DNA from: a virus
Length of the DNA: 27,605 nt
Reading direction: 5' to 3' (one strand)
IMG/VR virus record: IMGVR_UViG_3300025283_000003
Location: 1 to 27,605 of that record
Shown: positions 7,948 through 12,425 of the stretch, one piece after another
Position numbering within the stretch: the stretch's first letter is position 1
How the letters are laid out: every line of letters begins with the position of its first letter
Program-made: the position numbers and the translations under genes
Notes under the pieces: generated by a model
What the model was told of the DNA's origin: nothing
Database searches by the model: none
What the model saw: the letters and a program-made list of their open reading frames with translations, nothing else

Positions 7948-8227
7948 TAGACTTCACTAAATATTCCGTTGCTCTCAATAGTAATACAATGTCATCACTA
8001 AACAAACCCAAGGCGCGATTGTGATTAGAGCATAACAAGCCCCGCACTTTGCCAGTCTTATGGTTGTGGTCTATATCAAGAGCTCTCTTAGATGGTGGCT
8101 CCTTACATATAGCGCAGACACCATCTTGCTCAAAGAGCATACGTTCGTAGTCCTTAACGTCAATACCATAGTGACGTATTCTTGAGATGCGGTTTTCCGC
8201 GTATGTTTTATTTCTGTTTCTTGGCAT
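7940..8227 (-). CDS. HNH / endonuclease VII-like nuclease
   Basis: Encodes 95 residues of the recombination endonuclease VII type. CAIC at residues 38-41 starts the zinc site, DHNH at 53-56 is the catalytic core (LDIDHNHKTGKVRGLLC), and C66 with H69 completes the site; the usual fourth cysteine is replaced by histidine. It should resolve branched DNA before packaging. A GTG at 8245 is another possible start; the ATG at 8227 is preferred. It overlaps the preceding gene by 20 bases. Confidence 0.8.
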   Translation of the reverse strand: MPRNRNKTYAENRISRIRHYGIDVKDYERMLFEQDGVCAICKEPPSKRALDIDHNHKTGKVRGLLCSNHNRALGLFSDDIVLLLRATEYLVKSNG

Positions 8228-8528
8228 ACTTAGCCCACACTCCACGCTCTACCATTAGTGCAATGATTGCGTAGTTCGCTAAGTCAATAAATGAATCTTC
8301 AAGCGATTCATTTTCTGGGGCTATAGTCTTTGTACTATAGATAAGATTCTTCAATCTCTCCAGCTTGTCGGACATACGCACCATCAGCCCATTGGTTGCG
8401 CCACCTGGCGCATGCCAGATGTTGTATGGACCATAGTCGATTTGTTTTTTTACTAAAATTTTTAATAGCTCGTCAAAAATTTTTTGTGCATCTTCTTCGA
8501 ACTGTAAGATGGCTGTGTCTTCTGACAT
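8208..8528 (-). CDS. DUF1599 / MazG-like protein
   Basis: Encodes 106 residues. The blocks YGPYNIWHAPGG, VRMSDKLERLKNL and NESLEDSFIDLANYAIIA match the DUF1599 family (nucleotide-modification-associated domain 1), an all-alpha fold related to MazG/dUTPase-type pyrophosphohydrolases. Acidic residues E and D in the last block could bind magnesium. A role in the nucleotide pool or base modification is plausible. The ATG at 8528 follows AGGAG; an upstream in-frame ATG is rejected. Confidence 0.75.
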   Translation of the reverse strand: MSEDTAILQFEEDAQKIFDELLKILVKKQIDYGPYNIWHAPGGATNGLMVRMSDKLERLKNLIYSTKTIAPENESLEDSFIDLANYAIIALMVERGVWAKYAKKQK

Positions 8529-8535
8529 GGAGCTC

Positions 8536-9183
8536 CTATTCACTTAATGCCTTAACCAGTTTGGTTAACGCGTGAGCTCCTTGGTTGATAATTATACTAT
8601 TGATATCACTGTCGGGCGGTAGCGACACACGGACAGCCTGAGGGATTGCATCCTGTAACCGTCGAGCTAAATCCTGCCCAGGGTTAGAGCCATCTTCCTT
8701 AACGTCATTATCAGTCGCTATAACAACGCGACCAATCCCATCAAAACAACGGCTAAAGTGAGGCTTCCAAGCATTAACGCCAGCCACAGCGACAGCAGGA
8801 TGACCAACAAGAGTAGCACTAATCGCATCTATCTCTCCTTCCACTATTAAAACTTCATGTATTGCGTGGATAACTGCACTTACATTGTATAGGTGGTGCT
8901 TCTGACCAGTAGGAATCATGTACTTTGGTTCACTATCGTCAACGCGACGGAACTTAAATCCAACCACTCCAGCCTCGGTTATGTATGGGATAGACAAATG
9001 ATTCTTCAATCTTTCCTCATGACCAGGTGCTGGGTCGACCACGTAACCGAGCATGAATCGCTCAGCTCCAGCAAGGATGCCACGCTTTTCTAAGTATGCT
9101 TCAGCTGGTGAACCAATAAGGTTAGCGTGATAGGTCTTAGCAGCCTTGGTCCATAAGTCTATGAGTTTTTGATTAGGCTTCAC
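8536..9183 (-). CDS. DNA primase, TOPRIM part
   Basis: Encodes 215 residues. TOPRIM motifs: VLIVEGEIDAIS at about 111-122 (E115/E117) and VVIATDNDVKEDG at about 153-165 (D158, D160), the metal-binding core of DnaG-like primases. There is no zinc domain: that is encoded separately at 9710-10039, with an unrelated protease-like gene between. The start is a GTG overlapping the previous stop (GTGA at 9180-9183). It probably works with the zinc-domain protein and the RecA-fold helicase to prime replication. Confidence 0.85.
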   Translation of the reverse strand: MKPNQKLIDLWTKAAKTYHANLIGSPAEAYLEKRGILAGAERFMLGYVVDPAPGHEERLKNHLSIPYITEAGVVGFKFRRVDDSEPKYMIPTGQKHHLYNVSAVIHAIHEVLIVEGEIDAISATLVGHPAVAVAGVNAWKPHFSRCFDGIGRVVIATDNDVKEDGSNPGQDLARRLQDAIPQAVRVSLPPDSDINSIIINQGAHALTKLVKALSE

Positions 9184-9713
9184 TTCTTCTCCTGCCTGTG
9201 TACCACAAAGGGAGGAGCAGTGTACACATCATTCTTTGCTGCAACTTGTAGCGCCTTCTTCCAGCCAGCGCCAGATGCGATAGCACCTATGGCATAGGAA
9301 GACCCTGAACCTAAGCCATAGATACCATCATCGCGTAGGAAGACTGAGTACGTATCATCTATTTCATAGATGGTTCCGTTCACAGCCATTAAAAATAAAA
9401 ACTCATAATCTTCTGCCTTCTCATCATGAACAAAACCGTTATCTCGTAAGCACTCTCTCATATTGGGTATGACAGTTGTAATCATAAAATGGTAGATGTC
9501 TTTGGTATTAGCTGGAATAGTTGGTGGTTTCCATATATGTTGGACTATGTCACATGGCTGTGTAGTGCCAGCTCCAGCAATAAGGAACTTGCCTCGCTTT
9601 ATAATCTTAGTTGTAATCGGATGGGCATACGGTCTGCCCTTCTCGGTTGTAGTTCTGCTGTCGGCTGCGATGACGCAGCCGTCAGCTTCTTGAATACCAA
9701 TGATTGTAGTCAT
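9180..9713 (-). CDS. Proteasome beta / HslV-like Ntn-hydrolase
   Basis: Encodes 177 residues of the N-terminal-nucleophile hydrolase family. It begins M-T-T-I-I-G-I; removal of Met would expose Thr1, as in HslV. In mature numbering D17 (in CVIAADSRT), K35 in TTKIIK (cf. K33), the GSG motif with S135 (GLGSGSSYAIGAIASG) and D161 (KNDVYTAP) line up with the proteasome/HslV active-site set. No propeptide is present. Length is close to HslV (about 175). No HslU-like ATPase was seen in the window. It overlaps both neighbours by ATGA/GTGA and sits between the two primase parts. Possible roles: degrading host or phage proteins, or interfering with the host proteasome. Confidence 0.8.
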   Translation of the reverse strand: MTTIIGIQEADGCVIAADSRTTTEKGRPYAHPITTKIIKRGKFLIAGAGTTQPCDIVQHIWKPPTIPANTKDIYHFMITTVIPNMRECLRDNGFVHDEKAEDYEFLFLMAVNGTIYEIDDTYSVFLRDDGIYGLGSGSSYAIGAIASGAGWKKALQVAAKNDVYTAPPFVVHRQEKK

Positions 9714-10039
9714 AATGTCGCCCTCAATCTTGGTGGAGTCCAGCGACTCTTAGACTTACGTTTCCTCGTCGGGGCTTGACTCTTTGACTCCTTGCCAATG
9801 TTCTTCTCTGCCCATTTGCGAGCTTCTGGGTACGCCAAGTTTTCGCGAGCCATGACAATCTGTATACCAGCGCCACGTCCGTTACACGCATAGCATACCC
9901 AGACACCCTTCTCCGAGTTAACCGAGGCAGACTTACGTGAGTCATCATGTACAGGACAGTGAATGGATTTGTCCCCACCTAACGGTAGGTCTAATCCGTA
10001 ATGACTAAAGACTGCCTCAAGGAACTCAGACTGATTCAT
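9710..10039 (-). CDS. Primase zinc-binding (CHC2) domain protein
   Basis: Encodes 109 residues with a CHC2 zinc ribbon: C28-P-V-H31 and C49-Y-A-C52 (HCPVHDDSRKSASVN, then VWVCYACNGRG). This domain recognises template start sites in DnaG-type primases. The C-terminus is a long basic tail (RKRKSKSRWTPPR). It is the N-terminal half of a normal primase, encoded apart from the TOPRIM half at 8536-9183. It overlaps the protease-like gene by ATGA. Confidence 0.85.
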   Translation of the reverse strand: MNQSEFLEAVFSHYGLDLPLGGDKSIHCPVHDDSRKSASVNSEKGVWVCYACNGRGAGIQIVMARENLAYPEARKWAEKNIGKESKSQAPTRKRKSKSRWTPPRLRATL

Positions 10040-10042
10040 TTA

Positions 10043-10423
10043 TTAATACCAATTCCTTTCCTGGTGGAACCTGTACGCCCCGCACCAAGTTTCATAACGA
10101 TGTAGCACATACTTGTGTGCTTCTTCGGTCTGTTTGAGTAATGACCATTCGGGTTTACCCCAAAGTAATTGCCATACTCCACGTGCTCCACTCGATTTAT
10201 TGAATGAGTTCACGTTGTATCGGCTCTCCTTGTACGCTATTTGTAGCGCACACTGAACCTCGCGCTCGTTGATAGTAAACTGTGATATCGCGAACCTTAC
10301 TCGGTCCTTCTTGTCCGTGATAACGGACAACTGTTTCTCGATTGTAAGTGTTGGCGATATGGCTTGGGCTGGTGTTGCCAAAGGCAACAGCACTCCAAAC
10401 AGTATTACTAGTATTAACCGCAT
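10043..10423 (-). CDS. Secreted transglycosylase (SLT)-like protein
   Basis: Encodes 126 residues. A signal peptide (MRLILVILFGVLLPLATPAQ, cut near residue 21) is followed by a short lysozyme-like domain: AYKESRYNVNSF with catalytic-type E66, then SGARGVWQLLW. This resembles lytic transglycosylase SLT domains acting on peptidoglycan. It lies in the replication block, far from the lysis genes, so it may act early or before lysis rather than as the main endolysin. The ribosome binding site AAAAGAGG precedes the ATG. Confidence 0.7.
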   Translation of the reverse strand: MRLILVILFGVLLPLATPAQAISPTLTIEKQLSVITDKKDRVRFAISQFTINEREVQCALQIAYKESRYNVNSFNKSSGARGVWQLLWGKPEWSLLKQTEEAHKYVLHRYETWCGAYRFHQERNWY

Positions 10424-10815: not shown

Positions 10816-10964
10816 TACAGCTCAACTGATAGCCAGATTATTCCAAGGTCTAAGTTGATTGAGTAGCGGTCAACTGAGAATCCAAGAGCCAACCTCTTGA
10901 AGTTGTATCCGATACAAATATAAATCTTGCCAAGTCTGAGGTGCTTGCTTGCAAATAGTGTCAT
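10815..10964 (-). CDS. Small beta-rich protein (49 aa)
   Basis: A 49-residue frame (starts MTLFASKHLRLGKIYICIGY, ends IIWLSVEL), alternating hydrophobic residues typical of beta strands. It is tightly fixed between neighbours: ATGA overlap with the WhiB stop (10961-10964) and TAATG overlap with the resolvase start (10815). It resembles short conserved phage proteins with a FALGFS/YSLNLDLG-like rhythm. Function is unknown. Confidence 0.65.
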   Translation of the reverse strand: MTLFASKHLRLGKIYICIGYNFKRLALGFSVDRYSINLDLGIIWLSVEL

Positions 10965-11221
10965 ATAAAATCCTTCAATAATATTTCTTGTAACACAATC
11001 TTTCTCCTTCTCCTTAATTGTTTACGTTCTAGCGGGGTGGTTCCACCCCACATGCCGTGAGACTCGTGACGCACTGCCCATTCTAGGCACTGCTCACTGA
11101 CCCCACACCCTGAGCATACCGTACGAGCTAACTTGTAATCACCAACATCGCTAACATCTGGGAAAAAAATTTCTACGCCAATTTGCCTACACAACCCATT
11201 AGATAGATTTGGAAAGTTCAT
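10961..11221 (-). CDS. whiB: WhiB-family transcription regulator
   Basis: Encodes 86 residues with the WhiB set: C11, C36, C39 and C45 (CSGCGVSEQC) to hold a 4Fe-4S cluster, the GMWGG turn at 56-60, and a basic C-terminal helix (RKQLRRRRK) for DNA contact. The family is confined to Actinobacteria and their phages, where it binds the principal sigma factor and shifts host transcription. A phage copy may redirect host expression or act with the phage sigma factor. It is flanked by ATGA overlaps on both sides. Confidence 0.9.
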   Translation of the reverse strand: MNFPNLSNGLCRQIGVEIFFPDVSDVGDYKLARTVCSGCGVSEQCLEWAVRHESHGMWGGTTPLERKQLRRRRKIVLQEILLKDFI

Positions 11222-11601
11222 CTCAACTCCCTTGTTACCGTAAGTAAATCTTCGACTGTAATCAAAAAACCTTTGCTTCTATTCGGGGGAATCTCACAAG
11301 TAACCTCACGACCAAACTTTTTTACTGCGTGGTTAACGTGCTCTGTTGGAATCATCACTACACCTTTCTCAAGAACAAAAGCCCAATACTCAGCTTTAGT
11401 AACTGACAGTCCTGAAGGCTCCCAAGATTCGGACGAGAGATACCAGCATTCTACTTCTACGTAAACATTATTTGTAGACCACCACTTACGGTCACGCTTG
11501 ACTTCGACAGTCTTACCTTGGGTAAGAAGTTGCTCTACTAAATTCTCACCTCCCTTGCCGTAATTAAAATCTAAATCAAAACTAGAATTTTTTATTTCCA
11601 T
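11218..11601 (-). CDS. PD-(D/E)XK-like nuclease
   Basis: Encodes 127 residues. The blocks YGKGGENLVEQLL (E19), TVEVKRDRKW (E33-x-K35) and NNVYVEVECW, followed by SGLSVTKAEYWAFVL, match small phage PD-(D/E)XK proteins related to resolvases or restriction-type nucleases. It likely cleaves or trims DNA in recombination. It overlaps the ATPase gene by 10 bases and the WhiB gene by ATGA. Confidence 0.65.
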   Translation of the reverse strand: MEIKNSSFDLDFNYGKGGENLVEQLLTQGKTVEVKRDRKWWSTNNVYVEVECWYLSSESWEPSGLSVTKAEYWAFVLEKGVVMIPTEHVNHAVKKFGREVTCEIPPNRSKGFLITVEDLLTVTRELR

Positions 11602-12425
11602 TCACTTACAGTCCGAGCTCTATGTAAATCTGACGATGTGTTATATAGAATCATTTTACTAGCCTCAGCTGCAAGAGTTACATACTCTTCTGCATTCGGG
11701 TCTGCTTTACCATGACGGTTCTTTACAACCGCAACGCGATAAGCATTGGCTATGCTATCCAGCGCCACAGACAAAACCAATTCTGGTAGGGCTGCAACCT
11801 TGCCCATCAGGGCTTTGCGTGGCGCTGGATAATTTGGCTTACTCATTTTTTCATTCTCAGATACATGGTGCAAAACGATGAAAGCGGTTTCATATTCACG
11901 CGCCATGTAATGAAAGGCGGACATAGCGTCGCGTAACGCAGTCCATTCATTGTCGCTACTTGAAGCGACGTTCATTAAGTTATCTACATATACAGCTGTA
12001 GGGGCAGAGCCATGAAGTTCTATCCAGGCTTCTATCTCCTCCTCAATATCTTGAAGAGAAGGCGCTGGGTCGAAGCTGAATCGAATATGACCTGCCCCTT
12101 CAGACAGTGCGTCTTCGAGAAGAACGCTAGCTTCTGAATCCATAATCCGCTCAATATCAGTAACAACTTTATTCATGATGATTGCGCCAGCACGTGTTGC
12201 AATCGTACGTGAATCAGAGTCTGCTGATATGTACAGACCAGGGACTTTTGAAACTATGGCGTACCATAATGCAAGTAGGGTCTTACCGCCTCCAGGTTGC
12301 CCTGCAATCAAATGCAGTTGAGCCTGTCGAAAGGAGACAGAACAGGCAGTAAGTTGTGGAAGTAACTCTGGCAATTTCTTACCAGCTGGTGATTCCACAC
12401 CCACTACTTGCAATAAGGAACGCAT
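11592..12425 (-). CDS. DnaB/RecA-fold ATPase (helicase-like)
   Basis: Encodes 277 residues with a RecA-type ATPase core: Walker A GQPGGGKT at 42-49, Walker B AVYVDN at about 144-149, and a sensor-like FIVLHHVSE at about 181-189. The fold resembles DnaB-type replicative helicases or AAA_25/RepA-like ATPases. The N-terminal DnaB collar domain is absent, so it may be a minimal helicase or a recombinase-like loader. Its place in the same operon as the primase pieces supports replication. Confidence 0.8.
   Translation of the reverse strand: MRSLLQVVGVESPAGKKLPELLPQLTACSVSFRQAQLHLIAGQPGGGKTLLALWYAIVSKVPGLYISADSDSRTIATRAGAIIMNKVVTDIERIMDSEASVLLEDALSEGAGHIRFSFDPAPSLQDIEEEIEAWIELHGSAPTAVYVDNLMNVASSSDNEWTALRDAMSAFHYMAREYETAFIVLHHVSENEKMSKPNYPAPRKALMGKVAALPELVLSVALDSIANAYRVAVVKNRHGKADPNAEEYVTLAAEASKMILYNTSSDLHRARTVSEWK

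Follow-up and report, generated by a model that had tools for sequence, protein, structure and literature searches.

A predicted proteasome-like Ntn-hydrolase between the primase genes of a freshwater actinophage lineage

The protease gene and its neighbors

The virus record analyzed here, hereafter called the window, is partial, with 27,605 bases and a G+C content of 45.0%. Its replication cassette contains an open reading frame for a proteasome-like Ntn-hydrolase, located between the two halves of a split primase (Table 1). The original prediction had given the coordinates of this frame exactly and left its strand unstated. The plus strand carries several stops in the same frame, whereas the minus strand encodes 177 residues. 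The gene overlaps both of its neighbors: the stop codon of the CHC2 gene overlaps the protease start (ATGA), and the protease stop overlaps the GTG start of the Toprim gene (GTGA). The DUF1599 gene is a downstream member of the same cassette.

The WhiB-like gene, also within the replication cassette, is far more variable than its neighbors (35–90% identity). Just upstream of the primase genes, and away from the lysis genes, lies a gene for a small SLT-like lytic transglycosylase that looks secreted, with a signal-peptide-like start. The ATPase of the cassette, with its KaiC and AAA_25 matches, is RecA/KaiC-like and not an HslU/Clp unfoldase.

Table 1 Genes and residues around the protease gene, in window coordinates
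Feature	Position	Strand	Details
DUF1599 nucleotide-modification-associated protein	8208..8543	minus	PF07659, 30.7 bits (cut-off 25)
Primase, Toprim half	8536..9183	minus	215 aa; GTG start; Toprim_3, 39.7 bits
Proteasome-like Ntn-hydrolase (AAH-like)	9180..9713	minus	177 aa
Protease residues			Met1; Thr2 (mature Thr1); D18 (Asp17); K36 (Lys33-equivalent); G135-S136-G137
Primase, zinc-binding (CHC2) half	9710..10039	minus	109 aa; Zn_ribbon_DnaG, 40.3 bits
SLT-like lytic transglycosylase	10043..10423		18.3 of 21.3 bits
WhiB-like protein, Actinobacteria host marker	10961..11221	minus	Cys and WGG motif conserved among relatives
RecA/KaiC-like (DnaB-type) ATPase of the replication cassette	11592..12425	minus	KaiC, 43.0 bits; AAA_25, 42.3 bits

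Fold, active site and subgroup

The structure was predicted as a single chain with AlphaFold2, using an alignment of 19 relatives as input (pLDDT 90.5, pTM 0.86). The model places its strands and helices H1–H4 in proteasome order, with H1 at residues 51–60 and H2 at residues 73–91. The core fold of two β-sheets flanked by H1–H4, the four-layer arrangement whose absence had been named as the refuting observation, is present in both the model and the structural superpositions. A structural aligner returned the β-proteobacterial proteasome homologue BPH (Z 17.6), HslV (17.1), archaeal 20S (17.0) and Anbu (16.3), the first three being tied within tool error. Foldseek matched 981 PDB chains at E ≤ 0.001 and solved structures at E 5.8e-10; among the matches listed, all were HslV, BPH or 20S. 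When the profile of the 19 relatives was compared with PDB sequences, BPH ranked first (E 9.1e-8), followed by HslV and 20S, and these PDB sequence searches found no solved structure from this subgroup. It is nearly certain that the protein has the predicted fold and belongs to the proteasome-like family.

Family models indicated that the protein is a relative of HslV and the 20S β subunit and not plainly either one; in this respect the original prediction was not supported. It reached 20.3 of 137 bits with the HslV equivalog NF003964, 19.6 of 157.75 bits with TIGR03692 and 22.9 of 224 bits with the archaeal 20S β equivalog TIGR03634 (NCBIfam), whereas TIGR03690, another 20S β equivalog, did not match even at a threshold of E 1. 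The Pfam Proteasome model covered residues 2–50 only, at 17.3 bits against a cut-off of 22.4, and identity to 20S subunits was about 20%. With HslV the protein shares the fold, Thr1/Asp17/Lys, a similar length and the GSG motif, but it differs in these low equivalog scores and in having neither an HslU partner nor a propeptide. Its single match in PHROGs was phrog_1040, ‘peptidase HslV family’ (E 4.8e-26), which all relatives tested also match; this family is broad enough to include E. coli HslV and therefore does not resolve the subgroup.

The active site was compared across 117 distinct full-length sequences. Thr1, Asp17 and the Lys33-equivalent, the three residues whose conservation had been proposed as a check, are each present in 117/117. 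Both glycines of the GSG motif (134–136 in mature numbering) are likewise invariant and the serine occurs in 112, so the catalytic residues were read correctly, including the lysine, which stands two residues later in linear numbering as mature K35. One further residue of the proposed pattern, D161 (precursor D162), was lost from it: this position is Asp in only 80 of the 117 sequences and Asn, Thr, Ser or Val in the others, which puts it outside the conserved catalytic set. After Met1 the protein begins Thr-Thr, and a start codon (ATG, GTG or TTG) immediately precedes the Thr codon in every relative, confirming that there is no propeptide. A threonine at position 2 permits removal of Met1 by methionine aminopeptidase. 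Comparison with five relatives gave dN/dS values of 0.04–0.10, and the protease is thus under strong purifying selection. Together with the predicted fold and its BPH, HslV and 20S matches, the invariant residues uphold the proteasome-β/HslV-like character originally proposed.

Phage-encoded proteasome homologues are already known, and this protein belongs to a known kind. Fuchs, Alva and Lupas described 22 new proteasome homologues in 2021, including PPH and AAH in phages, with no AAA+ partners and no function given (PMC8665760). Other published cases are HslV-like genes without HslU in a jumbo phage of Salmonella (PMC7823757) and, in Alteromonas phage V22, a ‘proteasome-like’ gene (PMC7289586). 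A search of BFVD yielded 43 viral models at E ≤ 0.001, including proteins of Gordonia, Caulobacter, Vibrio, Erwinia and Serratia phages. Since so many other phage proteins have this fold, the idea of a first phage member, and with it the novelty originally attached to a phage copy, was dropped.

Within group I the protein comes closest to the AAH-like branch, a neighbor of BPH. It is likely an AAH member, an assignment made indirectly, from its size, its predicted helices and its cellular relatives. Like AAH, it is a group I protein of about 180 residues with no propeptide, and the model shows a compact subunit with H1–H4 and without the C-terminal S12/H5. AAH proteins also occur in phages. 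The cellular proteins closest to the window protein are on plasmids of Rhizobium, Sinorhizobium, Mesorhizobium and Streptomyces; in the plasmid collection searched, 17 of 20 records were rhizobial and 2 came from Streptomyces, a distribution that fits AAH, whose cellular members are in alpha-proteobacteria and Actinobacteria. A profile of six plasmid homologues from Rhizobium, Streptomyces and Bacillus (one from Bacillus) matched over the full length (E 2.6e-20), whereas a single E. coli HslV sequence, by design a weaker comparison than the six-member profile, matched over only 45 columns. In one respect the lineage departs from the earlier description: its WhiB gene and its relatives among cultured ‘Ca. 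Planktophila’ phages contrast with the 2021 survey, which found AAH in no phage specific to actinobacteria (PMC8665760). The relative on Sinorhizobium americanum plasmid B (L252, 2001–2546) lies among the nitrogen-fixation genes of a symbiotic plasmid, with nifQ upstream and, on the downstream side, nifS and a gene for an iron-sulfur assembly protein.

BPH (5OVS, 5OVT, 5OVU) leads the solved structures by sequence profile, with a structural score tied with those of HslV and 20S, and likewise has no known unfoldase. The window protein carries an acidic loop, DEKAEDYE, after H2, at the site of the long acidic pore loop of BPH, which has been linked to working without an unfoldase (PMC8665760). 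The two differ in that identity is only about 23%, BPH is cellular and BPH lacks a W/F-x-P-P motif. This motif follows H1 in phage and plasmid members, except the Bacillus plasmid protein, and is absent from HslV and BPH. PPH, found in phages and their hosts, is also a phage-encoded proteasome-like protein with no partner known (PMC8665760). It has about 140 residues and no H2, and the window protein was excluded from it by its 177 residues and its H2. A tree with HslV and BPH was dropped as a means of placement, as long branches left the deep forks unresolved.

Genome position, hosts and partners

Searches identified relatives on 111 contigs with a single-protein query and on at least 583 contigs with an alignment query, all of them IMG/VR virus contigs. 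That the gene is widespread in freshwater actinophages is a new detail. The phage origin and actinobacterial host proposed earlier agree with the WhiB gene, an accepted actinophage marker (PMC10202952, PMC6802176), and with homologues in cultured ‘Ca. Planktophila’ phages. The best matches among named phages, both full length, were OX376640 (37% identity) and OX376641 (36%). These are phages LanE43-AprE7 (E7) and AprF5 (F5), with which ‘Ca. Planktophila’ phages were isolated for the first time (PMC10202952). A distant homologue is encoded by Microbacterium phage Pumpernickel. Scanning a genome collection with the family alignment gave no relatives, and an Actinomycetota-wide profile search of 396 genomes gave only two weak partial matches and thus no close source on a chromosome. 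A 16S probe for the acI clade had no match in the same number of genomes; this is no evidence either way, as the probe may be inexact or 16S may be absent. PADLOC left the protease unmatched, so no known defense-system model covers it.

In a Toprim-anchored scan, the protease lies between the CHC2 and Toprim primase genes in all 78 informative relatives of the window lineage, one relative cut by a contig end being left out. Across 111 distinct sampled contexts, a sample that leans toward close relatives, CHC2 is directly upstream in 65 (62 also with Toprim downstream); in the others the gene follows Toprim (15), lies between helicase and nuclease genes (6), follows the portal gene (7) or is located elsewhere (18). 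The gene is therefore fixed within the lineage and moves between lineages, mostly within the replication cassette. In E7, the two primase genes overlap directly with no protease between them, and the protease directly follows the portal gene, a position also seen in L062, L066, L069 and others. The overlap of the E7 CHC2 and Toprim genes (L156, 34482–35346) is about 150 bases, in different frames. In a clade comprising L104–L114 and L130, about 200 extra bases separate the protease from the Toprim gene, leaving space for a small gene.

The late genes of a roughly 42-kb relative, G001, were inspected for other proteases, and none was recognized. A second protease hidden after the portal gene in window-type phages was rejected because that slot encodes a basic LysM protein. 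The late region of G001 contains three LysM-domain proteins (L165, 17016–18455, 9414–10673 and 7732–9411). Two of the three are encoded immediately upstream of the genes for scaffold and capsid. LysM domains are unusual in virion-region proteins and may here be linked to peptidoglycan binding.

The original prediction had reported no ATPase partner. The window is partial, so we judged this claim on 17 related records, of which 16 exceed the window in length (39–134 kb), and it held: none matched PF07724 (AAA_2, HslU/Clp-type), a search that succeeded in 14 of 14 control genomes. AAA matches in the relatives of about 40 kb correspond to the RecA/KaiC-like ATPase of the cassette, and further AAA proteins are encoded in the two largest related records, of 95.8 and 134 kb. 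The window record, itself partial, has one PF00227 match only and no accompanying α subunit.

Among actinobacteria, 20S-type proteins are present in 153 of 198 genomes of one class. In 28 small Actinomycetota genomes (1.0–1.5 Mb; G022 to G412), PF00227 had no match and a Clp-protease-family match was found in 26. Streamlining may remove the 20S proteasome, and streamlined hosts may lack 20S rings; this is only suggested, as none of these genomes is a proven host and several differ from the phage in G+C. Literature searches yielded no usable information on a 20S proteasome of ‘Ca. Nanopelagicales’. The earlier proposal that the phage protein mixes with host rings appears unlikely, given the low identity to 20S and the lack of PF00227 in the small genomes.

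Possible functions of the phage protease

We moderately favor a BPH-like, ATP-independent compartment protease made together with the replication genes. The protein is very probably catalytically active, as a threonine peptidase of the AAH-like, proteasome-like group I. Host methionine aminopeptidase would remove Met1 and expose Thr1, making a propeptide unnecessary. By analogy with BPH, one subunit type may form a small double ring, with neither α subunits nor an AAA+ unfoldase; a homo-oligomeric ring seems reasonably likely, and independence from an unfoldase a little likelier than that. Membership of the proteasome-like family does not by itself imply a ring or a protease, as connectase is a monomeric ligase (PMC8665760). 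The codon overlaps suggest that the protease may be translated together with the split primase, which would imply early action; whether it acts in the replication phase is evenly balanced. Any obligatory link to the primase or to early expression is weakened by the variable gene position, including the post-portal one of E7-type phages. The substrates would be limited in range and could be proteins of the host or the phage that are unfolded or exposed. An improbable extension concerns streamlined freshwater actinobacteria, which seemingly lost 20S: their phages would bring a one-gene, unfoldase-free compartment protease, made in fixed ratio with the split primase, which would trim or remove replication or defense proteins at the fork as a replication-coupled viral proteasome.

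The main rival is a virion maturation protease that processes head or internal virion proteins in place of a prohead protease. It is based on E7, F5, L062, L066, L069 and others, where the gene occupies the usual prohead protease place after the portal gene, and it also draws on the G001 late genes, in which there is no other recognized protease. However, in the window lineage the gene is always in the replication cassette, with the LysM protein in the post-portal slot, and the scaffold-like protein has its own gene. A maturation protease is often dispensable for phages whose scaffold is independent, which also argues against this role. Overall we consider it unlikely.

It is similarly doubtful that the protein is the peptidase of an HslUV-like pair, degrading proteins of the host or the phage in partnership with an AAA+ unfoldase of the host. 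The HslV-like fold and the lack of a phage-encoded unfoldase are consistent with such an arrangement, as is ClpP, and so presumably Clp unfoldases, in most of the small actinobacterial genomes. A host unfoldase such as ClpX or ClpC could be the partner and would be invisible in phage records. However, the HslV equivalog scores are so far under cut-off that HslU-type docking is not expected, and the small genomes encode neither 20S nor HslV, which makes a dedicated proteasomal partner there unlikely.

Slightly less probable still is a connectase-like processing enzyme, an amidase or ligase with a specific target and no general protease activity. The family includes monomeric ligases and 22 uncharacterized groups (PMC8665760), and the W/F-x-P-P motif might label a site specialized for substrate or assembly. 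Against this, the model lacks the connectase-type helical insertion between S3 and S4, the Pfam connectase domain matches weakly (E 0.23) and the nearest structural matches are peptidase rings. A chance or decayed frame, hinted at by the sub-threshold Pfam score, was dismissed on the strength of the purifying selection, an active site invariant in at least 117 distinct sequences, the PHROG match and the confident fold.

Phage proteasome homologues have had no assigned function since their description in 2021. What our analysis adds is a lineage: abundant in freshwater virus data, actinobacterial, and primase-linked in the group of the window. It has diverged homologues in two phages that are in culture together with their host, ‘Ca. 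Planktophila’ LanE-43, which makes the question of function testable. The strict position between two primase genes in the window lineage offers one concrete lead to that function.
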